Position numbers and translations under genes: made by a program | In this document: positions 295 to 14,989 of the stretch, in pieces | How positions within the stretch are numbered: position 1 is the stretch's first letter | Layout: each line of letters opens with the position of its first letter | From: a virus | DNA length: 29,208 nt | IMG/VR virus record: IMGVR_UViG_3300010430_002165 | Location: 1-29,208 of that record | Strand: one strand, 5' to 3' | The notes under the pieces: model-generated | Seen by the model: only the letters and a program-made list of their open reading frames with translations | The model's database searches: none | What the model was told of the DNA's origin: nothing

Positions 295-322
295 GGATTT
301 GGTAAATATTACCAGTCGAGGA

Positions 323-350
323 TTGACTTTCCCGATTTTTAGGATACAAT
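323..350 (+). promoter_or_regulatory. Sigma70-type promoter of the CCA-adding enzyme gene
   Basis: TTGACT (323-328), a 16-nt spacer and TACAAT (345-350). The ATG at 356 is only 5 nt after the -10 box, so transcription should start at or beside the start codon and the message would be leaderless. Confidence 0.65.
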
Positions 351-355
351 ATATC

Positions 356-3956: not shown

Positions 3957-3961
3957 GGATT

Positions 3962-3969
3962 TATTTATA
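3962..3969 (-). promoter_or_regulatory. Late promoter octamer TATAAATA (RlpA-like gene)
   Basis: Exact T4 late promoter consensus on the minus strand, 5 nt before ATG 3956, so +1 should be at the start codon. Confidence 0.75.
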
Positions 3970-3995
3970 CTCGATAATCGAAATTTGTCAAGGAT

Positions 3996-4019
3996 ATTTC
4001 CGATCAAATTTCCGATCAA
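3996..4019. repeat. Tandem 12-bp repeat ATTTCCGATCAA x2
   Basis: Two perfect head-to-tail copies (3996-4007, 4008-4019) followed by a decayed third start (ATTGCC). They lie between the divergent RlpA-like and u-spanin promoters. This could be an operator or activator site, or simple slippage. Confidence 0.6.
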
Positions 4020-4742: not shown

Positions 4743-5128
4743 GACGAGGACCATTAGAAAAAGAACACTTCTTAGAAGGTATAAGACAAAAATGGGCAAT
4801 AGTATTCCTACTTTGTGGGGGCTTAGTATTAGGTGTCCATCTATGGGTTGGTAGTTTTGACCCAGCCCCATATATGCAGTTCCTATTAGCTATAGGAGGT
4901 CTATTCATATTGGGAGCTTCTGGAGATTCGTGGGTTAAAGGATATAGTGTTAAATCTATAACAGAAACACAGGCTAGAGAAGAAACTAAAAGAGCGGTTG
5001 TGGATATTAGTGATGATTCCCAACCTGACAACAATATTATAATGGGATTCAATAATCAATATTCCAGAGATCAAAGTTATGCACCTAAAGATTGGATCGC
5101 AGAACAGGAAACCGCACAATTCAGATGA
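4739..5128 (+). CDS. Holin-like membrane protein
   Basis: 129 residues with two hydrophobic segments (about 19-38 WAIVFLLCGGLVLGVHLWVG and 45-62 QFLLAIGGLFILGASGD), a short loop between them, and a polar charged C-terminal tail of about 65 residues. Size, topology and position directly before the endolysin gene fit a two-TM holin. Start overlaps the upstream stop and stop overlaps the downstream start (both ATGA), so the three are probably translated as a unit. I do not recognise a specific holin family. Confidence 0.65.
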   Translation: MRRGPLEKEHFLEGIRQKWAIVFLLCGGLVLGVHLWVGSFDPAPYMQFLLAIGGLFILGASGDSWVKGYSVKSITETQAREETKRAVVDISDDSQPDNNIIMGFNNQYSRDQSYAPKDWIAEQETAQFR

Positions 5129-5907
5129 AAAATAAACTAGCACAGACCATATTAAAAGAAGCTGGACTATACGACTATGCTATAGATGGAAAATTTGGAG
5201 CTAGGAGTGTCTCAGCTTCTAATAAATATTATGACTTTCCATCTAGCTGGAGTGTCTATAAGCTCGTTACAGGTGTTATACAAGTAGCATGTATTAGAAA
5301 TAATATATCTATAGGGGAGATTGATGGACTGTGGGGTAATATGACACAATCAGGATATGAGAAATTATTAAAGTCTAATAATCTAACTACATCAACTCCA
5401 AAGGTCAATCCCAATGTATCAGTCTCTAAGAGATATAACAATTGGCCAAGTCAACGATATAATTCTATGGTGAAATATTATGGAAAAGTTGGAGAAAATC
5501 AAACATCTCTGACCCTACCATATAAAATGAAGCTTGCATGGGATTTGGATGTAACAGTAACTAGACTAACCTGCCATGAGAGGGTTCACGATTCCCTAGA
5601 GAGAATCTTCACAAAGACCCTTGAACATTATGGGGAAAAACTTATATCTAAGCTCCATCTAGATAATTATGGAGGTTGTTTAAACGTTCGTAAAATGAGA
5701 GGTGGTTCTTCTTGGTCTATGCACTCATGGGGTACTGCGGTTGATTTAGATCCAGATAGGAATCGATTAAGATGGAATAGTAGTAAGGCGTTTTTAGCTA
5801 GGAGTGAGTATAAACCTTTTTGGGAGATTGTAGAATCTGAAGGTTGGACAAGTCTAGGTAGAGAACGTAATTTCGATTGGATGCATTTCCAGAGCGCACA
5901 CTTATAA
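5125..5907 (+). CDS. Endolysin, M15-type peptidase with N-terminal peptidoglycan-binding region
   Basis: 260 residues from ATG 5125, which overlaps the upstream stop. Residues about 5-85 contain AIDGKFGARS and EIDGLWGNMTQ, typical of PG_binding_1 repeats. The catalytic part has zinc ligands in the M15 pattern: H190 and D197 in SMHSWGTAVDLDP and H254 in DWMHF. M15 enzymes cut peptide bonds in peptidoglycan cross-links. There is no signal peptide, so release through the holin encoded just upstream is expected. Confidence 0.85.
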   Translation: MKNKLAQTILKEAGLYDYAIDGKFGARSVSASNKYYDFPSSWSVYKLVTGVIQVACIRNNISIGEIDGLWGNMTQSGYEKLLKSNNLTTSTPKVNPNVSVSKRYNNWPSQRYNSMVKYYGKVGENQTSLTLPYKMKLAWDLDVTVTRLTCHERVHDSLERIFTKTLEHYGEKLISKLHLDNYGGCLNVRKMRGGSSWSMHSWGTAVDLDPDRNRLRWNSSKAFLARSEYKPFWEIVESEGWTSLGRERNFDWMHFQSAHL

Positions 5908-5958: not shown

Positions 5959-6828
5959 ATGAGTGAGAAATTTGAAGATATAGTAAAAGCTGGGCATAGC
6001 CCTTCTGTTCTAGATATAGAAACGGAACGTAGGTTAACTAGAAGTGAACAATCTATTGAAGATTTGGATGGAAATCTAAAGTCTTTAGAAAATAGAGTTG
6101 ATAGTGGCTTTAAAACTATGGACACCGATCTAAGAATAGTTAGATCAGAACTTGCAACAAGTCATAATGTGATCATTGAAAAGATTAACACTCTACAGAT
6201 TAGTGAAATCAATGACAAGAAAACCTCATGGCCCCTAATTCTAAAAGGAATATCATTAGCTTTCGTCGTTTCGATATCTATTGTAGGGTGGGGGATGACT
6301 CAACAAAAGACAAGTGCTGTGAATGCCGCTGTTGGAGAAGTGCATCACTCTTACCAAACCCAAGAAAATGCACACAACATCGAGTGGAACCGCCGCCAGA
6401 ATGACAGGGCGAATGCAAGGGATAAAGAAATAGCAGCAATTCAAAAGAATTATTACGAACACCGCGAAGGTCTTGAATTGGAAAAGTTTGTAGATGATAT
6501 GAACTCTAGAATTGCAATTCTTAGTTCCAAGATCTCTGTCGGTGCTACAGAACAAATTGAAGACGGTCGTAGGCTTGCCATCTTGGAAGATTACTCTATG
6601 ACCTCCATGAAGGATAGATCCAATCATACATCCCAGCTGAAAGACCTCCAAATAGAGCTAGGGATGATGAGGAAAACAATGTTGTCGGCTGTAACACAGT
6701 TGGGACAATTAGAACCTCTAACTAAAGATATGGGTCTTTCTACTATCAAGGGTGTGGCGGAAAAGTTGAAAGTGATTGAAAATCAAGTCAACGACTTAGG
6801 AACCAAAGTATGGCAAGGAAGACCATAG
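5959..6828 (+). CDS. Membrane-anchored coiled-coil protein
   Basis: 289 residues. Charged heptad-like helices (about 15-85) precede one TM segment (WPLILKGISLAFVVSISIVGWG, about 91-112), and a long helical C-terminal region follows. An N-in/C-out topology with a periplasmic coiled coil resembles i-spanins, and the overlapping downstream lipoprotein resembles an o-spanin; this is an alternative spanin pair to the gene at 4059. The stop is TAG; reading through it would add 32 codons to the next TGA, in the frame crossing the lipoprotein gene. A GTTAAATA sequence lies 9 nt before the ATG. Specific function not known. Confidence 0.75.
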   Translation: MSEKFEDIVKAGHSPSVLDIETERRLTRSEQSIEDLDGNLKSLENRVDSGFKTMDTDLRIVRSELATSHNVIIEKINTLQISEINDKKTSWPLILKGISLAFVVSISIVGWGMTQQKTSAVNAAVGEVHHSYQTQENAHNIEWNRRQNDRANARDKEIAAIQKNYYEHREGLELEKFVDDMNSRIAILSSKISVGATEQIEDGRRLAILEDYSMTSMKDRSNHTSQLKDLQIELGMMRKTMLSAVTQLGQLEPLTKDMGLSTIKGVAEKLKVIENQVNDLGTKVWQGRP

Positions 6829-6995
6829 CAATCATTTTACTTTGTATCATTCTCACATCCTGTGGACTTAACCATCCATCTAACCATACTTTTACCCGAG
6901 CTATTGCGCCCGATAAGTTTGGTATGAGTTTAAAGTTTGATGATAGTGAGCATTATAATGGTTTTACAACCGCACTCTCTTGGGATTTAGACTGA
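6810..6995 (+). CDS. Small lipoprotein, 61 aa
   Basis: MARKTIAIILLCIILTSC is a signal peptide with lipobox LTSC. The mature part is about 44 polar residues ending TTALSWDLD. It starts 19 nt inside the preceding gene, an overlap typical of i-spanin/o-spanin pairs, but the mature domain is short and not proline-rich. Other options are an o-spanin-like or exclusion lipoprotein. Its TGA stop abuts the 3' end of the convergent tRNA-Cys: base 6995 belongs to both. Confidence 0.65.
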   Translation: MARKTIAIILLCIILTSCGLNHPSNHTFTRAIAPDKFGMSLKFDDSEHYNGFTTALSWDLD

Positions 6996-7081
6996 GCTAT
7001 GGGAGGGATTCGAACCCCCAACGAAGCTTTCGCTAAAGGGATTTGCAATCCCTCCGTTTCAACCAATTCACGCACCATAGC
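6995..7081 (-). tRNA. tRNA-Cys(GCA), long variable arm
   Basis: Acceptor GCTATGG/CCATAGC (7 bp), anticodon arm AGGGA-TTGCAAA-TCCCT giving GCA, T loop TTCGAAT. Discriminator U73, the Cys identity base. The variable region (about 17 nt) can form a 5-bp hairpin (GCGAA-AGC-TTCGT), a class II feature not expected for Cys. The 3' end continues CAG, so CCA is not encoded. Last tRNA of the array. Confidence 0.85.
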
Positions 7082-7086
7082 TTAAG

Positions 7087-7157
7087 CAGACCGAGAAGGA
7101 ATCGAACCTTCGTCAAAAGTTTTGGAGACTCTTGTGTTACCATTACACCATCGGTCT
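7087..7157 (-). tRNA. tRNA-Trp(CCA)
   Basis: Acceptor AGACCGA/TCGGTCT, D stem GTGT/ACAC, anticodon loop CTCCAAA (CCA), T loop TTCGATT, discriminator G. Trailer CTT, no encoded CCA. Confidence 0.9.
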
Positions 7158-7163
7158 ATTAGG

Positions 7164-7243
7164 CGGAAGATGAGAGGATCGAACTCCCGCTACCGATTAA
7201 GGTAGGCTACTCTTTAGCAAAGAGACACACTTACCACTCTTCC
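7164..7243 (-). tRNA. tRNA-Ser(GCT)
   Basis: Acceptor GGAAGAG/ATCTTCC with one G-A mismatch at the inner pair. Anticodon loop TTGCTAA (GCT). Long variable arm (TACC-TTAATC-GGTA) as expected for Ser. Discriminator G. Trailer CCT, no CCA. Its 5' 13 nt overlap the end and stop codon of the upstream protein gene. Confidence 0.88.
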
Positions 7244-7578
7244 AATACTTTAATCCAAGTTCTACCATCGTCATATTTATTACGATATACAGTCTCTTCA
7301 TATATCTTAGTTACGACTCGCCATTCATCTGACACCCTTTCAACCTCTTCTACTTTTAAATTATAGACATCATCTGTTGGAAACTCTCCCGGTTCTCTTG
7401 ATGGATTTTTTGTAGATCTTTCTTTTGCGATCTTTATAAATTTATCATCTGATTTAAAAACATCAACCTTGAGAGAATATGTTCCCAACCCTCCGTATGT
7501 TTTATCCAAACATACCACATGCTCTGTTTTTGAGTTCCTTACATCCTCGACATACTTATTATATTCTTCTTCGTTCAT
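7231..7578 (-). CDS. Hypothetical protein, 115 aa, ends inside tRNA-Ser
   Basis: Starts MNEEEYNKYVEDVRNSKTEHVVCLDK. Charged, with a predicted beta-rich middle (DVFKSDDKFIKIAK, EWRVVTKIYEETVY) and no family I recognise. The ATG is 10 nt after the encoded CCA of tRNA-Val. The last codons and the TAA stop lie in the 5' acceptor and D region of tRNA-Ser(GCT), so 5' cleavage of that tRNA would remove the stop codon from the message. Confidence 0.7.
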   Translation of the reverse strand: MNEEEYNKYVEDVRNSKTEHVVCLDKTYGGLGTYSLKVDVFKSDDKFIKIAKERSTKNPSREPGEFPTDDVYNLKVEEVERVSDEWRVVTKIYEETVYRNKYDDGRTWIKVLEEW

Positions 7579-7588
7579 AATTAATCTT

Positions 7589-7663
7589 TGGTATAAGTGG
7601 AGGGACTCGAACCCCCAACATTCTGAATGTAAATCAGACGCTCTACCATTGAGCTACACTTAC
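7589..7663 (-). tRNA. tRNA-Val(TAC), CCA encoded
   Basis: Acceptor GTAAGTG/CACTTAT (G-U first pair), anticodon arm TCTGA-TTTACAT-TCAGA (TAC), T arm GGGGG/CCCTC with loop TTCGAGT, discriminator A, then templated CCA. Confidence 0.93.
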
Positions 7664-7673
7664 AGTTTTACGT

Positions 7674-7907
7674 TCATTTTATACTTGATCCGAATTTTTT
7701 ATTACTCTTAGCTGTCTCTGTGACATCTTCTACTGTTCTTGTTCCTTGACTGACCTTAATTACTTCCCATCCATCTTCCCAACTCTTATCACTTTTTTTG
7801 ATTTTGATGAATTTATTCAAAACCGCAAATTTACTAGGTATCCATGCTGTATGATGGTGTTTATTTCGCTTAAGAGCGCATTGTGTATATGTATCTTTCT
7901 TACTCAT
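7674..7907 (-). CDS. Hypothetical protein, 77 aa
   Basis: Start at ATG 7907 (MSKKDTYTQCALKRNKHHHTAW), 4 nt after the upstream stop; the longer frame from 7961 overlaps that gene. Contains a HHHTAWIPSKFA segment and WEDGWEVIKVSQGTRT. It resembles small basic proteins I have seen in tRNA-rich phage regions, but no function is known. It ends 10 nt before tRNA-Val. Confidence 0.7.
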   Translation of the reverse strand: MSKKDTYTQCALKRNKHHHTAWIPSKFAVLNKFIKIKKSDKSWEDGWEVIKVSQGTRTVEDVTETAKSNKKFGSSIK

Positions 7908-7911
7908 AAAT

Positions 7912-8100
7912 TTAATTCTTATCCCTGTCTGTGGTAATCCAAAAAATCTGCCAATCCTCATCGGGGGATTGTTCTTTCACATATTGTAGAAAAGCGTCAG
8001 CAGCTTTTTCACCACCCCACTGAACCTCATTTCTATACATATAGACCGCCAAATGATTATCGTCATCGGTCCAAAATCTACCTACTATATAATTCTTCAT
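7912..8100 (-). CDS. Hypothetical protein, 62 aa
   Basis: MKNYIVGRFWTDDDNHLAVYMYRNEVQWGG, then an acidic helix and WQIFWITTDRDKN. A small acidic, tryptophan-rich soluble protein of unknown function. It starts 16 nt after the encoded CCA of tRNA-Ser(TGA) and is followed by the 77-aa gene. Confidence 0.65.
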   Translation of the reverse strand: MKNYIVGRFWTDDDNHLAVYMYRNEVQWGGEKAADAFLQYVKEQSPDEDWQIFWITTDRDKN

Positions 8101-8116
8101 AATTTATTTTAAATTC

Positions 8117-8203
8117 TGGCGGGTAGTGAAGGAATTGAACCCTTACCGCTCATCACGATAGCCGAGAGTTCAAATCTCGTTTGACACCTTGCCGCCACCA
8201 CCC
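8117..8203 (-). tRNA. tRNA-Ser(TGA), CCA encoded
   Basis: Acceptor GGGTGGT/ACTACCC, anticodon arm CGAGA-TTTGAAC-TCTCG (TGA), long variable arm (GCTATCGTGATGAGC), T loop TTCAATT, discriminator G, templated CCA. One A-C mismatch in the T stem. Confidence 0.9.
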
Positions 8204-8209
8204 GTAGTT

Positions 8210-8545
8210 TTATCTAATCATTTTTCTTACATTGGGGCTGACTTTAACCCCTCTCTTATCACAAACATCTACATACCTTTCAGCATAAAATTTATAGTTT
8301 GTATAATACAAAATCTCGGACCATAACTCTCCAAATATTAAATTCTCATCACCATCATCTCTTAAAAGATCTCTAAACTCTTCACAATCTGTGCAAGTTT
8401 TAAACGTAGACCATGATCCTTCCCAACAACCCGAGAAGTAATGATACATCTCCTTGTAGAAGATGACACCGCCACACTCACAACACTTGTGAGGTTTTCT
8501 GGAAACTCTTGTTTTTGATGTATATGCTACAGGTCCGTCGCTCAT
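8210..8545 (-). CDS. Zinc-ribbon-like protein, 111 aa
   Basis: Starts MSDGPVAYTSKTRVSRKPHKCCECGG. CxxC pairs at CCECGG and CTDC, separated by an aromatic stretch (MYHYFSGCWEGSW), suggest one zinc site. The C-terminal half is helical with many Tyr residues. It has its own promoter, with the -10 box 6 nt before the ATG (leaderless). It may bind nucleic acid; this is inferred only from the zinc site. Confidence 0.7.
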   Translation of the reverse strand: MSDGPVAYTSKTRVSRKPHKCCECGGVIFYKEMYHYFSGCWEGSWSTFKTCTDCEEFRDLLRDDGDENLIFGELWSEILYYTNYKFYAERYVDVCDKRGVKVSPNVRKMIR

Positions 8546-8551
8546 ACCCAG

Positions 8552-8579
8552 AGTATATCCGGGTTTTAATTAATGTCAA
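8552..8579 (-). promoter_or_regulatory. Sigma70-type promoter with TTAATTAAAACCC spacer
   Basis: TTGACA, 16-nt spacer, TATACT (8552-8557), then 6 nt to ATG 8545. The TGA in TTGACA is the stop codon of the upstream gene. The spacer matches that of the tRNA promoter at 15078 and the elements at 11940 and 12160. Confidence 0.75.
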
Positions 8580-8788
8580 TCGAAAATATCACGAATCCAG
8601 CTAACCTCTGGGAGATCTTCCGTATTCTTATCCGCCCTTTTTAAAGCATTGACAATCTCACTATCTGTGAACAGTAGGGATTTTTCTTCTCCATCTGGAA
8701 ATTCAACTCTCAGATGATTATACTTCTTAGCTGCTGCCCAATGTGGTTGGGTGTTTTCTACTACTGTTAAGTCTCCTAGTCTACTCAT
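8576..8788 (-). CDS. Hypothetical protein, 70 aa
   Basis: Start set at ATG 8788 (MSRLGDLTVVENTQPHWAAAKK); the longer frame from 8851 runs back through tRNA-Gln. An ACTAAATA octamer lies 8 nt upstream (8797-8804). HLRVEFPDGEEKSLLFTDSEI suggests a small beta fold followed by helix. Its TGA stop is inside the -35 box of the next gene. Function unknown. Confidence 0.65.
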   Translation of the reverse strand: MSRLGDLTVVENTQPHWAAAKKYNHLRVEFPDGEEKSLLFTDSEIVNALKRADKNTEDLPEVSWIRDIFD

Positions 8789-8809
8789 ATCAATACTATT
8801 TAGTAAATT

Positions 8810-8884
8810 TGGCAGGGAATGAGAGAATCGAACTCTCGTTGATCGGATCAAAACCGATAGTAATAACCATTATACGAATTCCCA
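8810..8884 (-). tRNA. tRNA-Gln(TTG), CCA encoded
   Basis: Acceptor TGGGAAT/ATTCCCT with a U-U first pair; weak 1:72 pairing is a known Gln feature (U1-A72). Anticodon arm ATCGG-TTTTGAT-CCGAT (TTG), T stem GAGAG/CTCTC, discriminator G, templated CCA. Confidence 0.9.
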
Positions 8885-8886
8885 GT

Positions 8887-8974
8887 TGGGGTGATTGACG
8901 GGACTTGAACCCGCAAGCATTTTCATGCGTCAGATTCACAATCTGAGATGTTTACCAATTCCATCACAACCACC
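8887..8974 (-). tRNA. tRNA-His(GTG), CCA encoded, long variable arm
   Basis: Acceptor GTGGTTG/CAATCAC with G-1 opposite C73, the His identity pair. Anticodon arm TCAGA-TTGTGAA-TCTGA (GTG). D arm GATG...CATC has the loop GAATTGGTAAA, like Leu tRNAs. The variable region has a 4-bp stem (GCAT-GAAA-ATGC), unusual for His. Templated CCA abuts the next tRNA. Confidence 0.88.
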
Positions 8975-8986
8975 ATTATATACCTT

Positions 8987-9187
8987 TCATAATTTTTCTA
9001 CTTTACCTTTCACGAACAAATAGTTTGCCCAATGACAGAACTTCACCCATCTGGTAGGTTCACAGTAATAATATGATTCAATTTCTGGATCTAGTTCGAC
9101 TGTCCATTTCTTATCAAGTTTATGTGAATTAGGATTTACTTCAACCTTTTCAATTTGAAATTCTATGATGGGTATTTCTTTCTTCAT
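8987..9187 (-). CDS. Hypothetical protein, 66 aa
   Basis: Start at ATG 9187 (MKKEIPIIEFQIEKVEVNPN), separated by one base from the discriminator of tRNA-Asp, so excision of that tRNA would leave an essentially leaderless message. Beta-rich sequence with YYYCEPTRWVKFCHW (two cysteines, several aromatics). The longer frame from 9247 crosses the tRNA. Ends 12 nt before tRNA-His. Function unknown. Confidence 0.65.
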   Translation of the reverse strand: MKKEIPIIEFQIEKVEVNPNSHKLDKKWTVELDPEIESYYYCEPTRWVKFCHWANYLFVKGKVEKL

Positions 9188-9188
9188 G

Positions 9189-9261
9189 CGGAACGTGGGA
9201 GAATTGAACTCCCATAAACAGCTTGACAAGCTGCCGTAATGAACCATTATACTAACGTTCC
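9189..9261 (-). tRNA. tRNA-Asp(GTC)
   Basis: Perfect acceptor GGAACGT/ACGTTCC, anticodon loop TTGTCAA (GTC), T stem GGGAG/CTCCC, discriminator G. Trailer CAT: its C is followed directly by the ATG of the next gene. CCA not encoded. Confidence 0.92.
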
Positions 9262-9266
9262 TAAAT

Positions 9267-9476
9267 TTATTCTAATTCCAGCGCACCATCTTCTATTAAT
9301 TCTAAAGCAAACTCATATTGGATTTCTATTTCACAACCTATTTGAGATTTAAATATATCACCGGATAGGCAATCACTTCTATACATTTCATAGAGAAGAG
9401 TCCAATACTCCCCAAGTTCTGTTCCTTCATAGTTTGCGAAGTCGTCTAATTTATCTGCTTTTTCTATAGTTGTCAT
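9267..9476 (-). CDS. Hypothetical protein, 69 aa
   Basis: Start at ATG 9476 (MTTIEKADKLDDFANYEGTEL), 3 nt after the tRNA-Phe discriminator. Acidic and helical, with two cysteines (SDCLSGD, QIGCEIE) and end FALELIEDGALELE. The longer frame from 9521 runs back into tRNA-Phe. Ends 5 nt before tRNA-Asp. Unknown function. Confidence 0.65.
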   Translation of the reverse strand: MTTIEKADKLDDFANYEGTELGEYWTLLYEMYRSDCLSGDIFKSQIGCEIEIQYEFALELIEDGALELE

Positions 9477-9479
9477 ATG

Positions 9480-9553
9480 TCCCAAGTGTCGGAATCGAAC
9501 CGACCTACTTCTGATCTTCAATCAGACGCTTGAACCAACTCAGCTACCAAGGG
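9480..9553 (-). tRNA. tRNA-Phe(GAA), acceptor stem with mismatches
   Basis: Anticodon arm TCTGA-TTGAAGA-TCAGA (GAA), T arm GTCGG-TTCGATT-CCGAC and D arm GCT/AGC are clear; discriminator A, trailer CAT. The acceptor CCCTTGG/ACTTGGG has U-U at 4:69 and 5:68 and G-A at 7:66. It may be decaying, edited, or tolerated. Confidence 0.75.
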
Positions 9554-9570
9554 GTTCTATACATTATAAG

Positions 9571-9653
9571 TGGGGGTGGTGGGAGTCGAACCCACAAGCC
9601 GATTAAAGCGCAGCATTCTAAGTGCTGTGTGTTTACCGTTTCACCACACCCCC
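9571..9653 (-). tRNA. tRNA-Leu(TAG)
   Basis: Acceptor GGGGGTG/CACCCCC, anticodon arm CAGCA-CTTAGAA-TGCTG (TAG), long variable arm, T stem GTGGG/CCCAC, discriminator A. Trailer CTT, CCA not encoded. Its 5' 21 nt overlap the end of the upstream protein gene. Confidence 0.92.
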
Positions 9654-9869
9654 TATATTTTGTTTAATAATTGCTTCCATTACTTCCCTATCAATTTCCT
9701 TTTGAATCTCTCTACTCATTGTAGCAGCTAACATATCCTCTATACAAGAATAAGTTATTGGAATATACGGACCATAGATAATACCACTAGATTTTATAGG
9801 TAATGTGGTTGGCAAACTTGGTGCAGCCAAGAATCCTAATAAACTCCCTATAAATCCTCTTCTTTTCAT
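9633..9869 (-). CDS. Small Tat-like protein with two capsid-like motifs; ends in tRNA-Leu
   Basis: 78 residues. MKRRGFIGSLLGFLAAP resembles a twin-arginine signal (RRGFIG then a hydrophobic stretch). Residues about 29-38, GIIYGPYIPI, match GIIYCPYIPI of the gp23-type protein in this window at 9 of 10. Later EIQKEIDREVM resembles its EIQAEIDREVV segment, but the two occur in the opposite order. The start is 9 nt after the tRNA-Ala discriminator. The last 21 nt, with the TAA stop, lie inside tRNA-Leu. The capsid-like segments may be remnants or a functional mimic. Whether it is exported is unknown. Confidence 0.65.
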   Translation of the reverse strand: MKRRGFIGSLLGFLAAPSLPTTLPIKSSGIIYGPYIPITYSCIEDMLAATMSREIQKEIDREVMEAIIKQNIGGVVKR

Positions 9870-9878
9870 AATCTTATG

Positions 9879-9950
9879 TGGAGCTATTCGGATTCGAACC
9901 GAAAATCGACTGCTTGCAAAGCAGGTGCATTACCGTTATGCTATAACCCC
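9879..9950 (-). tRNA. tRNA-Ala(TGC)
   Basis: Acceptor GGGGTTA/TAGCTCC with G-U pairs, anticodon loop TTTGCAA (TGC), T stem TTCGG/CCGAA, discriminator A, trailer CAT. CCA not encoded. Four bases separate it from tRNA-Arg. Confidence 0.9.
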
Positions 9951-9954
9951 TAAG

Positions 9955-10026
9955 TGGGTCATAGAGGAATCGAACCTCTCTTACTTCGTTCGTAGCGAAG
10001 TGTTATATCCACTCTACTAACAACCC
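9955..10026 (-). tRNA. tRNA-Arg(ACG)
   Basis: Acceptor GGGTTGT/ATGACCC, anticodon arm CTTCG-CTACGAA-CGAAG (ACG; A34 would need deamination to inosine), T stem AGAGG/CCTCT, discriminator A, trailer CTT. CCA not encoded. Confidence 0.92.
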
Positions 10027-10029
10027 ATC

Positions 10030-10353
10030 TTAATATCCACTCATTAAACTACTAGCTACTGATCTAAAAGATTCAGCTTTAATTCGGTTATCCCTTTCTA
10101 TAACAAATCTTCTATCCACTTCATCTTGAAAATCTTTCATACTGTCGAAAGTGGCAATTCGATCATAATCAACAAATATATCTTTACTCTGATTATCTTT
10201 GTAATGCCACTGTCTAGTTAAATTATCTGCAAAGATACTCATCTCTTCCATAGAAGCGTCACGGATCACAAATTTAGGCTGTTTTCCTAAAGCAAATTGC
10301 TTACTATTACGGTATACCATCCAATCACATCTATACTCTTTTTCGTCTTCCAT
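10030..10353 (-). CDS. Hypothetical protein, 107 aa
   Basis: MEDEKEYRCDWMVYRNSKQF; mixed alpha/beta, highly charged, ending SFRSVASSLMSGY. The ATG is 4 nt after the tRNA-Ile(GAT) discriminator, and the TAA stop is 3 nt before tRNA-Arg, so it fills the space between two tRNAs. No family recognised. Confidence 0.68.
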   Translation of the reverse strand: MEDEKEYRCDWMVYRNSKQFALGKQPKFVIRDASMEEMSIFADNLTRQWHYKDNQSKDIFVDYDRIATFDSMKDFQDEVDRRFVIERDNRIKAESFRSVASSLMSGY

Positions 10354-10357
10354 TACG

Positions 10358-10431
10358 TTGTCCCTGTAAGACTCGAACTTACGACTTCAACCTTATCAAG
10401 ATTGCGCTCTAACCAACTGAGCTAAGGGACA
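10358..10431 (-). tRNA. tRNA-Ile(GAT)
   Basis: Perfect acceptor TGTCCCT/AGGGACA, anticodon arm CAATC-TTGATAA-GGTTG (GAT), T stem GTAAG/CTTAC, discriminator A, trailer CGT. CCA not encoded. Confidence 0.92.
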
Positions 10432-10440
10432 TTTTCTACG

Positions 10441-10513
10441 AGCCGCAGGAGGGACTCGAACCCCCAACCTGATGCTTACAAAGCAACTGCTCTACCATTA
10501 AAGCTACTACGGC
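10441..10513 (-). tRNA. tRNA-Thr(TGT)
   Basis: Acceptor GCCGTAG/CTGCGGC, anticodon loop TTTGTAA (TGT) with one T-T mismatch in the stem, T arm GGGGG-TTCGAGT-CCCTC. Discriminator U is unusual for bacterial Thr (normally A). Trailer CGT, no CCA. Confidence 0.88.
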
Positions 10514-10517
10514 ATTT

Positions 10518-10706
10518 TCATCTAACTATAAAATACATAACTCCAAAGTATATCATCCAAATGGATGGTGTCAATACCAAGAAACATATAACTTGGAAAA
10601 CTCCTGCGAACCAACCGTCATCATTTATCAATGAAAAGAAACAAATAATAGTGAGTATTGTTTGTAGAATATAAGGTATTATAATTGGGTGAAATGTTAT
10701 TGTCAT
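10518..10706 (-). CDS. Small two-TM membrane protein, 62 aa
   Basis: MTITFHPIIIPYILQTILTI then FFSLINDDGWFAG then a second hydrophobic segment ending MYFIVR. Two membrane helices with a short polar loop containing DDGW. It lies 8 nt after the stop of the 69-aa gene and 4 nt before tRNA-Thr. Function unknown; size alone would allow an envelope-acting or exclusion role. Confidence 0.65.
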   Translation of the reverse strand: MTITFHPIIIPYILQTILTIICFFSLINDDGWFAGVFQVICFLVLTPSIWMIYFGVMYFIVR

Positions 10707-10714
10707 ATTTTAGT

Positions 10715-10924
10715 TTAATTTACACAAACTGCGTTGAATTTTTCATCTTCATCTAACTCATGTCTGAATTCTCGATCAGAGAAGATACCGGAACTAGGTG
10801 AATAATGAACAGGCTCATAACTATTACCCTCATCATCTGATGAAGTTACCACTAAAGCTTGCGACATCTCTGGATTTTCCACTACGAACTCTTGTAAGTT
10901 TTTTACATAAATTTCTAACGTCAT
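10715..10924 (-). CDS. Conserved-looking phage protein, 69 aa
   Basis: MTLEIYVKNLQEFVVENPEM, then ALVVTSSDDEGNSYEPVHYSPS and ending EKFNAVCVN. The DDEGN-(x)n-VxYxP-(x)n-NAVCxN layout recurs in small phage proteins as I recall, function unknown. The A of the ATG is also the last A of the CCA end of the tRNA-like RNA immediately upstream (TGG on the plus strand at 10924-10926). Confidence 0.75.
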   Translation of the reverse strand: MTLEIYVKNLQEFVVENPEMSQALVVTSSDDEGNSYEPVHYSPSSGIFSDREFRHELDEDEKFNAVCVN

Positions 10925-10996
10925 GGCCGGAAGGGTAGGTAACGAGCCTACATTTTGTCGGGGGACACCGACAGTCTTACATTAGATGACCAACCG
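10924..10996 (-). tRNA. tRNA-like RNA with 8-nt anticodon loop, CCA encoded
   Basis: Fills a slot between tRNA-Gly and a protein gene. T arm GTAGG-CTCGTTA-CCTAC, acceptor CGGTTGG/CCTTCCG with U-U at 4:69 and 5:68, discriminator G and templated CCA. Anticodon stem TGTCG/CGACA encloses GTGTCCCC, 8 nt instead of 7. The D arm is reduced (TCT-AATGTA-AGA) without GG, and the T loop lacks the usual TTC. It may be a decaying tRNA, a shifty tRNA, or a tRNA mimic. Amino acid cannot be assigned. Confidence 0.55.
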
Positions 10997-11000
10997 TATG

Positions 11001-11072
11001 AGCAGGTGGAGGGAATCGAACCCTCATCAAAAGATTGGAAATCTCTTATATTAACCATTATACGACACCTGC
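11001..11072 (-). tRNA. tRNA-Gly(TCC)
   Basis: Perfect acceptor GCAGGTG/CACCTGC, anticodon arm AGAGA-TTTCCAA-TCTTT (TCC), T stem GAGGG/CCCTC, discriminator U (the Gly identity base), trailer CAT. CCA not encoded. Confidence 0.92.
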
Positions 11073-11262
11073 TAATGTTCAGACACGCAGAAGTTATCTG
11101 CCATATCTGAGTTTATTCTATACTATGTTGCAACATAGTCAAGCTAAGAATCGAGCCTTTCCCTCTCGGGTATGGATTGCCTTCACATTGCGATGCTGTT
11201 ATAGGACTCACGGAGTTTCCTCCCGCCACCCCCCACCCATTACAAGGGGACACGAAGTTGTT
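11073..11262 (-). ncRNA. Gene-free stretch with stacked hairpins, possible structured RNA
   Basis: 190 nt between the 93-aa gene and tRNA-Gly with no plausible frame. On the minus strand: GGAG-GAAA-CTCC and CCC-GAGA-GGG GNRA-capped hairpins; an 18-nt palindrome (11122-11139, ACTATGTTGCAACATAGT); and a two-tier hairpin TCAGA/TCTGA enclosing GCAGA-TAACT-TCTGC next to tRNA-Gly. The packing of stems suggests a stable RNA co-transcribed with the tRNAs. No family recognised. Confidence 0.45.
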
Positions 11263-11544
11263 TTACACTAGTTTATGACCTCCATTCACATCATCTACGA
11301 TCTTTACTCCGGGAACAAAGGTTAGAGCCTCTGCAACATGGTCCCATTGTTGGGTAGTAACTTGCACTACACAGCCTCCCGGAACTTCCATAGCCTTTGC
11401 TGACTTCATCCAGCCTTGCGCCTTAGACGATGCTTTACAGAGCAATGTGAACATATCACCATTACCCACTACGTTGATGTCAGAGACTTTCTCTACTGCA
11501 TCCTCTACACTTTGCACATCTAGTGCTTTTGCTTCATTACTCAT
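11263..11544 (-). CDS. Conserved-looking phage protein, 93 aa
   Basis: MSNEAKALDVQSVEDAVEKV, then GDMFTLLCKASSKAQGWMKS and GGCVVQVTTQQWDHVAEALT. Proteins with the KASS..GWMKSTKAM..VVQVTTQQ pattern are frequent in phage genomes as I recall, without known function. Probably a compact alpha/beta fold. It starts 17 nt after tRNA-Lys, with a TATAAATT sequence directly before the ATG. Confidence 0.78.
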   Translation of the reverse strand: MSNEAKALDVQSVEDAVEKVSDINVVGNGDMFTLLCKASSKAQGWMKSAKAMEVPGGCVVQVTTQQWDHVAEALTFVPGVKIVDDVNGGHKLV

Positions 11545-11561
11545 AATTTATAATTTTAAGG

Positions 11562-11634
11562 TGGGATCGGCGGGGTTCGAACCCGCGACCTTGAAGTTAA
11601 AAGCTTCTTGCTCTACCAACTGAGCTACAATCCC
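11562..11634 (-). tRNA. tRNA-Lys(TTT)
   Basis: Acceptor GGGATTG/CGATCCC, D stem GCTC/GAGC, anticodon loop CTTTTAA (TTT), T stem GCGGG/CCCGC, discriminator A, trailer CCT. CCA not encoded. Confidence 0.93.
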
Positions 11635-11659
11635 TAAAGACTCACCCCGAATTACGCTT

Positions 11660-11923
11660 TCAAGAAGAGGCGCGGGGTGACATAATCATTCTATTTGGGC
11701 TAAATTCTCTATACCCAGCTTCTTCACTATCAAATCTAATTTGTTTTCCACAATCTAAACAAACCACATCTAACCAATAACTATCGGCAGTTGGATCGTA
11801 ATTACCTGTATTCGATCCATACTTAGAATTATGGTTTTTATGAACACATTTTTCACGGATTTTTGCGAGTTTTCTGTAAAATTTAGATATCTTTTTTTCG
11901 TATTTTATTATTTCTGGGTTCAT
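11660..11923 (-). CDS. Small zinc-finger-like protein, 87 aa
   Basis: The N-terminal basic helix (MNPEIIKYEKKISKFYRKL) is followed by CVHKNH and CLDC, a possible C-H/C-C zinc site, and ends RMIMSPRASS. Start chosen at ATG 11923. A nearer ATG (11933, 6 nt after the -10 box) opens only a 16-codon frame (MITNEPRN...) in another frame. The promoter and first bases are a near copy of those of the upstream gene. Could be a small regulator; unproven. Confidence 0.65.
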   Translation of the reverse strand: MNPEIIKYEKKISKFYRKLAKIREKCVHKNHNSKYGSNTGNYDPTADSYWLDVVCLDCGKQIRFDSEEAGYREFSPNRMIMSPRASS

Positions 11924-11939
11924 TTGTTATCATGTGGTT

Positions 11940-11965
11940 ACTATATCTGGGTTTTAATTAATTAC
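11940..11965 (-). promoter_or_regulatory. Promoter-like element, TTAATTAAAACCC motif with TATAGT
   Basis: The minus strand carries TTAATTAAAACCCAGA then TATAGT, the same spacer and -10 as at 12160 and 15078, but no good TTGACA at -35. The conserved spacer may itself be read by a phage factor. Confidence 0.5.
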
Positions 11966-12153
11966 ATTTTCCCAACATCCATCAGTTCTAGAATTTCTTC
12001 ATCAGAATATTCACCATTAGCACATTTAAGGAGATGCTCATTTAATGTATCAGAACATTCAAATACCACATCTCCATTATCTATTAATGGTTGAATATGT
12101 TCGGCCCATGCTTTATCGTGGGCTTTTCTAAACTCTGTCTCATTTGTTATCAT
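11962..12153 (-). CDS. Hypothetical protein, 63 aa
   Basis: MITNETEFRKAHDKAWAEHI, acidic and helical, with two cysteines (FECSDTL, LKCANGE) and end EILELMDVGKM. The -10 box lies 6 nt before the ATG, so the message should be leaderless. Unknown function. Confidence 0.65.
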   Translation of the reverse strand: MITNETEFRKAHDKAWAEHIQPLIDNGDVVFECSDTLNEHLLKCANGEYSDEEILELMDVGKM

Positions 12154-12159
12154 GTGAAT

Positions 12160-12187
12160 ACTATATCTGGGTTTTAATTAATCAATT
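12160..12187 (-). promoter_or_regulatory. Promoter-like element duplicating that at 11940
   Basis: Same TTAATTAAAACCCAGA-TATAGT core as 11940, followed by 6 nt and ATG 12153. The -35 is poor (AATTGA at the 16-nt spacing). The similarity extends past the promoter into the first coding bases (ATGATAACAAATGA). Confidence 0.5.
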
Positions 12188-12221
12188 TTCCACGAAGGAT
12201 GTGCTGTTAAATCAAAACCTA

Positions 12222-12298
12222 TGGTCTACCGTTAGGGAATCGAACCCTACTAATCGTGATCCCAAATCACGCGCCTCACCAGTCAATGCCTACGGAAG
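12222..12298 (-). tRNA. tRNA-Pro(TGG), CCA encoded
   Basis: Anticodon arm CGTGA-TTTGGGA-TCACG (TGG), T stem TAGGG/CCCTA, C1-G72 and A73 as in Pro tRNAs, templated CCA. Acceptor CTTCCGT/ACGGTAG has one U-U mismatch at 3:70. Confidence 0.88.
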
Positions 12299-12344
12299 AT
12301 ATTAACACAATTATTTCATGTCGCTGTGTAATGACGACATTATG

Positions 12345-12416
12345 CTCTCAAGGTACGACTCGAACGTACAACCTAGAAGTTAACAGCTTCCCGCTCTACC
12401 ATTGAGCTACTTGAGA
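12345..12416 (-). tRNA. tRNA-Asn(GTT)
   Basis: Perfect acceptor TCTCAAG/CTTGAGA, anticodon arm GGAAG-CTGTTAA-CTTCT (GTT), T stem GTACG/CGTAC, discriminator G, trailer CAT. CCA not encoded. Confidence 0.93.
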
Positions 12417-12421
12417 TTTGA

Positions 12422-12613
12422 TTGATAAGCCCGGATTCGAATCGGGTAAGGTCTTTTATTTCAGGCTACCCTTTTCCTGTTGGCGTTTGAGACTTCATTC
12501 GTGCATTACGTTGAATGTCATTTTACCCATTGCGTTATTAGCTAACCAAGTTAACTCCTAATTCCTTTGATTGGTGAATTAGGAAACCAACTACTCCAAG
12601 TAGTCACTTATCA
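12422..12613 (-). ncRNA. 192-nt RNA with tRNA acceptor and T arm (tmRNA-like, or tRNA with insert)
   Basis: The ends pair as a perfect 7-bp acceptor TGATAAG/CTTATCA with discriminator A. The 3' side has a tRNA T arm (CCCGA-TTCGAAT-CCGGG, 4 of 5 pairs). It fills the slot between tRNA-Asn (5 nt away) and the next tRNA-like RNA (13 nt away). Inside are a 9-bp hairpin (TCCTAATTC/GAATTAGGA), a 6-bp one (GTTAAC-TTG-GTTAGC), a tandem TAATAA, and a 13-codon run GCA...TGA. No anticodon arm is evident. The layout recalls tmRNA, but the conserved tmRNA D-region and an Ala-Ala tag are missing. Confidence 0.5.
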
Positions 12614-12626
12614 AAATTTATATATG

Positions 12627-12694
12627 CCTGAGCATGAGGTTGTGAACCTCCATCACCTGTGAAAAACAGGGCTTTTAATTTAAGCTATACTCAG
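12627..12694 (-). tRNA. tRNA-like RNA, anticodon uncertain (TTT or TTC)
   Basis: Acceptor C1-G72 CTGAGTA/TGCTCAG (7 pairs with one G-U), D stem GCTT/AAGC, T stem mostly paired, discriminator G, trailer CAT. The anticodon stem is CCTG/CAGG around TTTTTCA: centring gives TTT (Lys), counting from the D arm gives TTC (Glu). The D loop lacks GG and T-loop base 58 is C instead of A. Probably a diverged or decaying tRNA; Lys(TTT) and Glu(TTC) genes exist elsewhere in the array. Confidence 0.6.
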
Positions 12695-12753
12695 TTTTAT
12701 GTGGCTGCTTGCGAGGCACTTTCCCGTATTGCTACGCTAGTTTTTACCATATG

Positions 12754-12825
12754 TGCGCCATGTCGGATTCGAACCGACGACCGAGGATTTAGAATCCTCT
12801 GCTCTAACCACTGAGCTAATGGCGC
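12754..12825 (-). tRNA. tRNA with anticodon CTA (amber suppressor)
   Basis: Perfect acceptor GCGCCAT/ATGGCGC, T8-A9, D stem GCTC/GAGC, anticodon arm GAGGA-TTCTAAA-TCCTC with a fully paired 5-bp stem, giving 34-36 = CTA. T arm GTCGG-TTCGAAT-CCGAC, discriminator A, trailer CAT. CTA pairs with the amber codon UAG. An Arg TCT register would break the anticodon stem. The body, with GCGCC acceptor and TTCTAA loop, resembles tRNA-Arg(TCT), but the amino acid inserted cannot be read from sequence. Every consensus tertiary position is intact, so it should be functional. Confidence 0.88.
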
Positions 12826-12829
12826 GTTC

Positions 12830-12848
12830 CGGTAGCACTATGCTACCG
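12830..12848 (-). other. 8-bp hairpin just upstream of the CTA tRNA
   Basis: CGGTAGCA-TAG-TGCTACCG, a perfect 8-bp stem with a 3-nt loop, 4 nt before the 5' end of the CTA tRNA and after the stop of the 127-aa gene. No T run follows, so it is not a simple terminator. A processing or stability element is possible. Confidence 0.6.
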
Positions 12849-12857
12849 AGGTTTTAA

Positions 12858-13241
12858 TTACCCTTTCTGTTCATCTATTCTATCAGACGCGAACCAGATG
12901 TCAACGTCCTCATCGAATTTCTTTTCAGAATTCGAAAATTTATTTGCCAAACGTTTGACTTCCTTGACGATACGATTCCATCTATAGGGATCTTTCGGTT
13001 TGGTTGTCTGTTCAATTCGTCTATATGGAACATCCCTCATAAATCCATATGCTAGTTGTATTGCTCTCGCAGCATCCCTAACATCGTGGGTTCTATGATT
13101 CCTAAGTTTCCAAAACTCTAAGGATTTAACATCTGGATTAGACCAGATATCTCCTTCTATCTTGTGTTTGGATTTTATCTTAGTCTCTTCAAGACGAATA
13201 TACTTCGCCTCTTGAGCTAGTTCCTTTACTCTTACTCTCAT
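12858..13241 (-). CDS. Hypothetical basic protein, 127 aa
   Basis: MRVRVKELAQEAKYIRLEET then HKIEGDIWSNPDVKSLEFWKLRNHRTHDVR and RAIQLAYGFMRDVPYRRIEQ. The pattern (MRVRVK.LA.EA..IR.EE, then R.HR...R..AR..QLAYGF.R..PY..IE) matches a small protein common in large phages as I recall, with no function assigned. Basic and helical, possibly nucleic-acid binding. The ATG sits in a 6-bp hairpin (13239-13255). Confidence 0.75.
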   Translation of the reverse strand: MRVRVKELAQEAKYIRLEETKIKSKHKIEGDIWSNPDVKSLEFWKLRNHRTHDVRDAARAIQLAYGFMRDVPYRRIEQTTKPKDPYRWNRIVKEVKRLANKFSNSEKKFDEDVDIWFASDRIDEQKG

Positions 13242-13255
13242 TCCAGAAAGGAATG
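13239..13255 (-). promoter_or_regulatory. Hairpin containing the start codon of the 127-aa gene
   Basis: Minus strand CATTCC-TTTCT-GGAATG, with the ATG start as the last three bases of the 3' arm. A second 7-bp hairpin (GCTGATA/TATCAGC, 13267-13286) is just upstream. Together they could limit initiation until unfolded. Confidence 0.45.
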
Positions 13256-13313
13256 CATTATCTTTTGCTGATATTTCGGTATCAGCTACCTATGTGTTTT
13301 TCATAACAAATCT

Positions 13314-13553
13314 TTATTTTACGTAGCTTAAAAATACTTTATCACCTACAACTCTAGCATTGTGTGGGCAATTCATACCACGAATACCATGATCTAGTTT
13401 TGCTGTAACATCACCAATCTTCAATTCATAACCAGATTGATATGCTAAATGCTCACCTTCTGGTAGAGTTCCCTCTACGATATTAGCTTTCCACTCACCT
13501 TCATATCTTTCGGTTAAGATTTTTTGCATATTTTCAGTATCGTTTATTCTCAT
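13314..13553 (-). CDS. Hypothetical protein, 79 aa
   Basis: Start at ATG 13553 (MRINDTENMQKILTERYEGE), downstream of tRNA-Tyr; the longer frame from 13652 would translate the tRNA. Beta-rich sequence GYELKIGDVTAKLDHGIRGMNC, ending ARVVGDKVFLSYVK. Possibly a small barrel; no family recognised. Confidence 0.68.
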   Translation of the reverse strand: MRINDTENMQKILTERYEGEWKANIVEGTLPEGEHLAYQSGYELKIGDVTAKLDHGIRGMNCPHNARVVGDKVFLSYVK

Positions 13554-13566
13554 AATCTTATTTAGT

Positions 13567-13652
13567 TGGTGTGAAGGGTGGGATTCGAACCCACGTATCC
13601 CGAAGGAATTGGATTTACAATCCAATGCTTTTAACCACTCAGCCACCCGCAC
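13567..13652 (-). tRNA. tRNA-Tyr(GTA), CCA encoded
   Basis: Anticodon arm TTGGA-TTGTAAA-TCCAA (GTA), long variable arm, T stem GTGGG/CCCAC, discriminator A, templated CCA. Acceptor GTGCGGG/CCTTCAC has one C-T mismatch at 4:69. Confidence 0.92.
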
Positions 13653-13654
13653 AT

Positions 13655-13948
13655 TTATTTTTCATCACATTTTAAATTTTTAATATCAGAATATACCCCA
13701 TAATTTTTATTACATTCACTACAACTAGTTCTAGTGAACCATATTCCGGTCGATCTTCCAATTTTGAGAGAACCACAATGAGGACATTTTAATAGAAATG
13801 TCCAAATCTCACCTGAGACAGATCTTCCAAATAAATCAGTATTACTATCCCAAATTTCTTCCGGCAGGGAGTATGCGTATACAGTATGTTCTTCTGGGAT
13901 TATTGACTGATCTATTAGACCGTTTCCCATATCTTTTCCGATATTCAT
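13655..13948 (-). CDS. Zinc-ribbon protein, 97 aa
   Basis: MNIGKDMGNGLIDQSIIPEE then LLKCPHCGSLKIGRS and TSCSECNKNYGV: two CxxC pairs 25 residues apart, a typical zinc-ribbon spacing. The start overlaps the stop of the MazG-like gene (ATGA) and the stop is 2 nt before tRNA-Tyr. Nucleic-acid or protein binding is possible; function unknown. Confidence 0.72.
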   Translation of the reverse strand: MNIGKDMGNGLIDQSIIPEEHTVYAYSLPEEIWDSNTDLFGRSVSGEIWTFLLKCPHCGSLKIGRSTGIWFTRTSCSECNKNYGVYSDIKNLKCDEK

Positions 13949-14271
13949 CTATTATCTCCAGATCCTCCAATTACTCCACGGGTCTTACGGGATTGTAACT
14001 TTTCGAGATTGATTATACATATCTCATCCAGGGTATATCCTAAGTCTCTAGTTAGAGTCGCACAATACCACATTACATCTGAAATTTCTTTGGCGATCTC
14101 TTTCTTCTTTTCATCTGTAAAGACTCCCTCGTTATCTCTGAGGACTTTCTTCACCTTATCTGCTACTTCCCCAGCCTCTCCTGTAAGTCCTAGTGTTGGA
14201 TAGATGATCTTAGATCCTTCTCCATAAATTGCCGTTGCTACTGCTTTCTCTTGGTATTCGTTTAGTGTCAT
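13945..14271 (-). CDS. MazG-like nucleotide pyrophosphohydrolase
   Basis: 108 residues from ATG 14271 (MTLNEYQEKAVATAIYGEGS). Metal-binding motifs of the all-alpha NTP pyrophosphatase superfamily: GLTGEAGEVADKVKK (ExxE) and KEISDVMWY (ExxD). These enzymes hydrolyse (d)NTPs to monophosphates and pyrophosphate. In phages they are thought to affect nucleotide pools or (p)ppGpp. A longer start at 14307 is possible but overlaps the upstream gene. Single-domain length is normal for phage copies. It is the only recognisable enzyme among the array genes. Confidence 0.85.
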   Translation of the reverse strand: MTLNEYQEKAVATAIYGEGSKIIYPTLGLTGEAGEVADKVKKVLRDNEGVFTDEKKKEIAKEISDVMWYCATLTRDLGYTLDEICIINLEKLQSRKTRGVIGGSGDNR

Positions 14272-14278
14272 TTGATTA

Positions 14279-14452
14279 TTATTTACAATTTCTCTCTCCC
14301 CATTCACAGAATTCTATGAATGTTTTTTGTTGGTCTTCAGATAATTCTGAAAACATCATATGATATTGTTTGTTTTGTTCAAAGTCAAACGGATCAATAC
14401 AATGTTTTAATGCATCGTCTATTATTTCTCTAAGTCGTTCCACTTCATTCAT
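14279..14452 (-). CDS. Hypothetical protein, 57 aa
   Basis: MNEVERLREIIDDALKHCID then PFDFEQNKQYHMMFSELSED and EFCEWGERNCK. Acidic and helical. The A of the ATG is the final A of the encoded CCA of tRNA-Met (ACCATG), so removing that tRNA at its mature end would cut into the start codon. It stops 7 nt before the MazG-like start. Function unknown. Confidence 0.65.
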   Translation of the reverse strand: MNEVERLREIIDDALKHCIDPFDFEQNKQYHMMFSELSEDQQKTFIEFCEWGERNCK

Positions 14453-14528
14453 GGTAGGAATAGTCAGATTCGAACTGACGATGACTGAGATATGAACTCA
14501 GTGTCTTAGACCACTAGACGATACTCCA
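14452..14528 (-). tRNA. tRNA-Met(CAT) or tRNA-Ile2(CAT), CCA encoded
   Basis: Anticodon arm CTGAG-TTCATAT-CTCAG (CAT), T stem GTCAG/CTGAC, discriminator A, templated CCA. Acceptor TGGAGTA/TATTCCT has a U-U first pair. If C34 becomes lysidine it would read AUA as Ile; a separate TAT tRNA makes elongator Met more likely. Confidence 0.85.
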
Positions 14529-14535
14529 GTTTATG

Positions 14536-14623
14536 TTGCGGGTGATGGATTCGAACCACCAACAGGACATTATCCATTCTCTTGGTTATGAGCCAAGGAT
14601 GTTACCAATTACACTAACCCGCG
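14536..14623 (-). tRNA. Initiator-like tRNA-Met(CAT), long variable region
   Basis: Acceptor CGCGGGT/ACCCGCA has the C1-A72 mismatch that marks bacterial initiator tRNA. Anticodon loop CTCATAA is identical to that of E. coli initiator tRNA; the stem CTTGG/CCAAG has two of the three G-C pairs. The variable region is about 20 nt with GGA/TCC pairing, unlike normal initiators. Discriminator A, trailer CAT. CCA not encoded. Confidence 0.82.
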
Positions 14624-14630
14624 ATTAAAT

Positions 14631-14831
14631 CTATTTAAAATATTCGTAACATACGTATCCGATAAGTGCTAAAATCAATACACCAATTACCAATCCAAAA
14701 CTAATCCATAGAGGGGATAATACCCACCACCATGACCAACTGATCACGCCTCCAAGTTTTAGTCCTACGAATAGTATGGTAAGGAGTCCAGTGAACCCTA
14801 TACCGCCCGATGATGTTGTTTCTTTACTCAT
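14631..14831 (-). CDS. TMEM185-like small membrane protein
   Basis: 66 residues. GLLTILFVGLKLGGVISWSWWWVLSPLWI is the pattern that leads many phage proteins to be labelled transmembrane Fragile-X-F-associated protein. A second hydrophobic helix (GLVIGVLILALIGYVCY) follows. Role unknown. It starts 13 nt after tRNA-Ile(TAT) and ends 7 nt before the initiator-like tRNA. Confidence 0.85.
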   Translation of the reverse strand: MSKETTSSGGIGFTGLLTILFVGLKLGGVISWSWWWVLSPLWISFGLVIGVLILALIGYVCYEYFK

Positions 14832-14844
14832 AATTTTATTAAAG

Positions 14845-14915
14845 TCGCATATGCTAGAGTTGAACTAGCCTCTCTCCCTTATATGGGGAGTATGTTCACC
14901 GAACACTTATATGCA
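14845..14915 (-). tRNA. tRNA-Ile(TAT), A at position 33
   Basis: Acceptor TGCATAT/ATATGCG (U-G first pair), anticodon arm CTCCC-CATATAA-GGGAG with 34-36 = TAT, T arm GCTAG-TTCAACT-CTAGC perfect, discriminator A, trailer CTT. The near-invariant U33 is A. D stem TGT/ACA. Confidence 0.75.
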
Positions 14916-14917
14916 TG

Positions 14918-14989
14918 TAATCCCACGGGGAGTCGAACCCCGATCTGGTGGATGAAAACCACCTGTTCTAACCATTGAACTATGAGATC
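14918..14989 (-). tRNA. tRNA-Glu(TTC)
   Basis: Anticodon arm GGTGG-TTTTCAT-CCACC (TTC), T stem CGGGG/CCCCG, D stem GTTC/GAAC, acceptor GATCTCA/TGGGATT with G-U pairs, discriminator A, trailer CAT. First tRNA after the array promoter. Confidence 0.9.

Follow-up and report, generated by a model that had tools for sequence, protein, structure and literature searches.

Suppressor tRNAs encoded by phages are usually taken as a sign of recoding. In the delta and beta crAss-like phages and the Lak phages that use code 15 (TAG to Gln), a phage-encoded CUA tRNA comes together with TAG within many genes and a gain in coding density under code 15. The same type of tRNA has been described in phages without recoding. 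XacN1 carries a full tRNA set plus two CUA tRNAs, and an in silico test in which 18 amber stops were read through gave no targets (PMC5852040). In Zeta crAss-like phages such as Lera the CUA tRNAs are seemingly unused, and a weakening of the host has been suggested by the authors (PMC12386605). Yutin et al. raised both incipient recoding and anti-defence readthrough (PMC7886860). The phage described here adds another case to this puzzle: it belongs to a T4-like clade that has kept a CUA tRNA for a long time and uses TAG as an ordinary stop codon.

The window, i.e. the whole 29,208-nucleotide stretch of viral DNA that we analysed, represents a 29-kb piece of the genome of a T4-like phage. It encodes a gp23-like major capsid protein (24889–26349, minus strand; phrog_138, E = 1.2e-77), prohead protease, scaffold and baseplate proteins, nrdA/nrdB, Thy1 and the CCA-adding tRNA nucleotidyltransferase cca (293–1852, plus strand; phrog_2244, E = 1.3e-56), some of these names being read from the translations. 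ARAGORN calls an array of about 23 tRNAs on the minus strand (6994–14989) that serves all 20 amino acids plus CUA. The array has mostly one anticodon per amino acid and many small ORFs among the tRNAs, and an additional weak tRNA-like match is located at 7164–7243 (22.8 bits). A lytic transglycosylase-fold protein (3567–4019, PF03330) and a nearby M15 peptidase (5092–5907, PF13539) are probably related to lysis. A search of INPHARED for near-identical phage genomes found none, and the only record retrieved with the VWA protein was a 100%-identical 18-kb fragment. The IMG/VR fragments L009, L010 and L178 are related to the window by gp23 sequences that are 100% and 96% identical to its own; the 18-kb contig (L009 and L178) probably represents the same phage or a sister phage. 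A half-tRNA pattern that was used to search bacterial genomes for a host or donor gave no match, and in viral contigs it matched only a tRNA-Ile of an unrelated phage.

The earlier note on this DNA, made from the sequence alone, had described a complete CUA tRNA of the amber suppressor type. The tRNA was confirmed at 12754–12825 on the minus strand by ARAGORN (called at 12753–12825), by alignment with relatives and by the Rfam tRNA model RF00005, with which it is the highest-scoring tRNA in the window (73.3 bits, cut-off 29); the E-value of 1.8e-14 excludes a chance match. Its cloverleaf is complete, with perfect acceptor, anticodon and T stems. The 7-nt loop UUCUAAA is closed by the 5-bp stem GAGGA/UCCUC, and since the loop lies between five perfect pairs, CUA is the sole anticodon register that fits. 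The tRNA combines U33-C34-U35-A36-A37-A38 with G1-C72, C2-G71, the discriminator A73 and a short variable loop, and its 3' CCA is not encoded. ARAGORN labels it Pyl on the basis of the anticodon alone. In the architecture of tRNA-Pyl the anticodon stem has 6 bp and a single base separates the acceptor stem from the D stem. Its 5-bp anticodon stem and two bases at that position set the CUA tRNA apart from this architecture.

The neighbouring tRNA-Tyr(GUA) (13567–13652, minus strand, ARAGORN), which has a long variable arm, shares its anticodon arm GGATTGTAAATCC with that of the CUA tRNA, GGATTCTAAATCC, save for base 34. A derivation of the CUA tRNA from this tRNA-Tyr is possible, as it fits the arm with one base change, though not the rest of the molecule; the match hints at an origin and does not settle charging. 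Directly 5' of the CUA tRNA, a perfect 8-bp hairpin, CGGTAGCA-CTA-TGCTACCG, was seen in the sequence (12830–12848), placed between the 5' end of the tRNA and an ORF at 12858–13241. It is a possible processing signal or terminator. An HDV-like ribozyme adjoining the CUA tRNA, as known from recoded gut phages, was rejected, as the Rfam search gave no ribozyme match at the hairpin.

Lysine identity in bacteria depends on U35 and A73. Tyrosine identity depends on A73 and U35, in bacteria also on G1-C72, and bacterial tRNA-Tyr has a long variable arm, which is absent from the CUA tRNA. Glutamine, the usual residue in code 15, requires G73 and U1-A72, both likewise absent from the CUA tRNA of the window. 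In E. coli, amber tRNAs with U35 and A73 insert lysine, and a change from A73 to G73 moves them towards glutamine (PMC9976931). Under E. coli identity rules we infer from U35, A73 and the short variable loop that lysine is the best guess for the amino acid carried by the CUA tRNA, followed by tyrosine or threonine, and that glutamine is unlikely. A TyrRS homologue was not found in these phages.

A search of IMG/VR with gp23 gave 249 relatives, of which 80 were kept, and a search with Thy1 added more. Owing to the divergence of the tRNA bodies, none of the relatives was matched by a first exact pattern for the anticodon arm of the CUA tRNA. tRNA scans of the long relatives revealed six further carriers of a CUA tRNA, namely G004 (207 kb), G009 (197 kb), G027 (212 kb), G006 (99 kb), G013 (38 kb) and G034 (27 kb), and no CUA tRNA in the stretches read of G003, G010, G011, G014, G015, G017, G018, G019, G020, G021, G023, G024 and G026. 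In most carriers the tRNA sits at a shared place in the array, with Asn/Pro on one side and Tyr/Met/Glu on the other. The alignment of the seven shows UCUAAA (33–38), C2-G71 and A73 in all of them and G1-C72 in all but one. Their bodies are different: three have a generic class I D-arm and four a 3-bp D stem. The existence of two body types makes the replacement of one CUA tRNA by another possible. Mean pairwise identity of the CUA tRNAs is 0.66, compared to 0.56–0.76 for other tRNAs of the same phages; the CUA tRNA thus diverges no faster than the others and is not decaying. In the gp23 tree all seven carriers fall within one supported clade of 11 with three state changes. This distribution fits one gain and two losses, a history in which the CUA tRNA would be old and kept rather than the recent start of a recoding, and it suggests that the tRNA has been present since the base of the clade.

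A near-isogenic pair provides a natural control. The non-carrier G003 and the carrier G034 are 99.6–99.9% identical over about 23 kb flanking a replaced segment of the tRNA array, in which a cassette of about 3–4 kb has been swapped. The cassette of G034 comprises the tRNAs Met, CUA, Asn, Pro, Lys and His together with an ORF that by eye resembles an HNH endonuclease (no Pfam match). That of G003 comprises the tRNAs Tyr, Pro and Lys together with an ORF resembling, again by eye, a 2H phosphoesterase, whose substrate might be tRNA ends left by cleavage. With a covariance model derived from the CUA tRNAs, no such tRNA was found in G003. Gene calling in the shared flanks gives one and the same set of TAG-ended genes for both phages. 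As the same TAG stops persist despite the swap, the CUA tRNA is exchangeable and unneeded to decode the shared genes.

TAG is an ordinary stop in this clade and the phage uses the standard code. We called genes in 16 records, seven carriers (about 0.81 Mb) and nine non-carriers, with our own simple codon-usage caller and counted genes of at least 100 aa for stop usage. Coding coverage under codes 11 and 15 was 0.888 and 0.874 in G004, 0.887 and 0.899 in G009, and 0.884 and 0.891 in G027; the standard code results in a normal coding density in carriers and reading TAG as sense gives no rise. When all called proteins were compared between the records by tblastn, TAG inside alignments was no commoner than TAA or TGA. 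Those TAG signals that were read turned out to be gene starts or ends, out-of-frame ORFs or antisense ORFs, some of them overlapping cca. For the majority of carrier genes that end with TAG there are orthologues of nearly equal length ending with TAA or TGA, and a conserved C-terminal extension after TAG was not found; the extensions are short and unrelated between orthologues. No release factor was detected as a PF00472 match in 12 records. Phage release factor 2 is not found in every code-15 phage.

Taken together, we consider it likely that the CUA tRNA is a decoding-competent amber tRNA kept by selection in one standard-code T4-like clade, where it would compete with RF1 and have no dedicated targets. 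It would be made together with the rest of the tRNA set, have its CCA end added by the phage-encoded nucleotidyltransferase and be charged by a host synthetase, most plausibly with lysine. During infection the charged tRNA would then compete with RF1 at UAG. With few UAG stops of its own and no dedicated targets, the phage may tolerate some readthrough. Any benefit would be diffuse and could lie in looser termination at host UAG-ended genes or in the rescue of occasional amber mutations. A non-essential suppressor is the best reading of the CUA tRNA.

Alternatively, the tRNA could be directed against the host: a putative readthrough of host UAG-ended genes would disturb host or defence proteins, and the few UAG stops of the phage would spare its own. 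This is possible, although we lean against it. Such a role has been suggested for the Zeta crAss-like phages (PMC12386605) and by Yutin et al. (PMC7886860), and the long retention of the CUA tRNA without phage targets would agree with it. Among genes of at least 100 aa, those with a TAG stop make up 3.8% in carriers (30 of 784) and 6.3% in non-carriers (73 of 1163; Fisher p = 0.018), a weak hint in the same direction that is uncorrected for kinship and partly a matter of composition. On the other hand, the cassette with the CUA tRNA is readily lost, and Tenacibaculum phage pT24, which carries a similar tRNA, itself has many TAG stops: they end 28 of its 229 genes of at least 100 aa (12%), including that of the terminase large subunit, which argues against strong avoidance of TAG. 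In a fuller form, which we regard as tentative and rather doubtful, the CUA tRNA would be a host-directed translation weapon of non-recoding phages that is long kept without phage targets and passes from one near-identical phage to another on exchangeable tRNA cassettes. If this were true, host proteins ending in UAG would be corrupted and the phage would rely mostly on UAA and UGA.

A role outside decoding seems unlikely to us. Without being charged, the CUA tRNA could serve as a decoy, such as a sink for host anticodon nucleases, or be a by-product, or it could be a hitch-hiker of the array. Protection against tRNA-cutting defences has been suggested as a role of phage tRNAs (PMC10264068), and it is whole arrays rather than single tRNAs that are kept. 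However, conservation is highest in the anticodon loop, the remainder of the tRNA being divergent: bases 33–38, UCUAAA, are invariant in 11 of 11 aligned CUA tRNAs, including A36-A37-A38. Hitch-hiking leaves the conservation of CUA unexplained.

Another reading is a recoding towards code 15, incipient or partial and of the kind known from crAss-like phages; the suppressor would have come first and TAG codons would be on the point of entering the genes. The earlier note had offered partial recoding as one of two mechanisms, and we consider it very improbable here. Yutin et al. proposed that recoding may begin with the pre-emergence of a suppressor (PMC7886860). Yet this tRNA is apparently as old as the clade, and across the roughly 0.81 Mb of sequence from carriers the conserved genes show no in-frame TAG. 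Coding density is equal whether TAG counts as a stop or as sense, and A73 and G1-C72 are unfit for glutamine. The genome-wide search for TAG-interrupted genes that the note had proposed was negative in the relatives, the window being a 29-kb fragment of its genome: none was seen among the conserved genes of three carrier records of 197–212 kb. Within the window, as the note had stated, no gene is broken by an in-frame TAG, and none needs readthrough.

The other mechanism of the note was a timed readthrough switch. The three TAG stops on which it was built are real: cca (TAG at 1850–1852), a coiled-coil protein (5959–6828, plus strand, TAG at 6826–6828) and a ClpP/head-maturation-protease-like protein (21343–21990, plus strand, phrog_94, TAG at 21988–21990) have their next in-frame stops after 1, 32 and 15 residues, respectively. 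The coiled-coil protein has no homologue among the compared relatives. cca ends with TAG in three of the six carriers in which it was found (window, G004, G013) and in none of five non-carriers; in the other carriers and all compared non-carriers it ends with TAA. The TAG ending in the three carriers possibly stems from shared ancestry. Their frames beyond TAG comprise 1, 3 and 9 residues, the window cca having TAA one codon later, so that readthrough would hardly alter the protein. ClpP-like orthologues are of similar length (208–229 aa) and mostly end with TAA or TGA, with TAG in two non-carriers. The median distance to the next in-frame stop in carriers is 9 for TAG, 8 for TAA and 6 for TGA, and similar in non-carriers, so that neither back-up stops nor long tails are indicated. 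A programmed passage of TAG at the ends of cca, the ClpP-like gene and the coiled-coil gene that would yield timed extended proteins is therefore hardly credible: the excess of TAG-ended cca among carriers speaks for it, but the cca extensions are unrelated, the ClpP-like gene ends with TAG in carriers and non-carriers alike, and extensions after TAG are neither conserved nor longer than those after TAA or TGA. What stands of the note is the tRNA of the amber suppressor type and the continued use of TAG as a stop by the phage that encodes it; both mechanisms that the note proposed are unsupported.

Compared to known systems, the phage of the window shares with XacN1 (AP018399) the full tRNA set plus a CUA suppressor for which no targets were found. 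XacN1 is, however, a jumbo phage with two copies in terminal repeats, whereas the window has one A73 copy in a T4-like clade. The two neighbouring CUA tRNAs of XacN1 (36047–36122 and 36130–36205 in L320) are alike except for the acceptor stem, one having A73 and one G73; identity rules would predict that the pair is charged differently, lysine-like (A73) and glutamine-like (G73). The Zeta crAss-like phages Lera, ct1yV3 and ctE7s22 similarly show a CUA tRNA in diverged phages with rare TAG and no TAG reassignment, but in Lera each TAG is directly followed by another stop (PMC12386605), which is not the rule in the window clade. Code-15 phages share the phage-encoded CUA tRNA with the window clade and differ in TAG-containing genes and the coding-density gain, neither of which the clade shows. 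Among sequenced isolates, related CUA tRNAs occur in two cultured phages. The tRNA-Sup of pT24 (LC168164, 191520–191593) is 79% identical over 85% of the CUA tRNA of G034 and has the same loop CTCTAAA, and pT24 uses the standard code by the coding-coverage test; it differs in having only a handful of other tRNAs and in its many TAG stops. Rhizobium phage RHph_I1_18 encodes a tRNA-Pyl(cta) (MN988519, 10911–10988) with 75% identity to the CUA tRNA of the window. It is likewise T4-like with a tRNA array, a CCA-adding enzyme and the standard code, TAG ending 3.9% of its genes, but its tRNAs lie in another gene neighbourhood, where they are surrounded by homing endonucleases and an endonuclease VII-like gene. 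To the puzzle known from XacN1 and the Zeta crAss-like phages our analysis thus adds a T4-like clade with long retention, two or more losses, a natural near-isogenic control pair and two cultured relatives. A CUA tRNA by itself is an insufficient trigger for code-15 gene calling. As pT24 and RHph_I1_18 are cultured and their host genera known, the purpose of such a tRNA is open to direct test.
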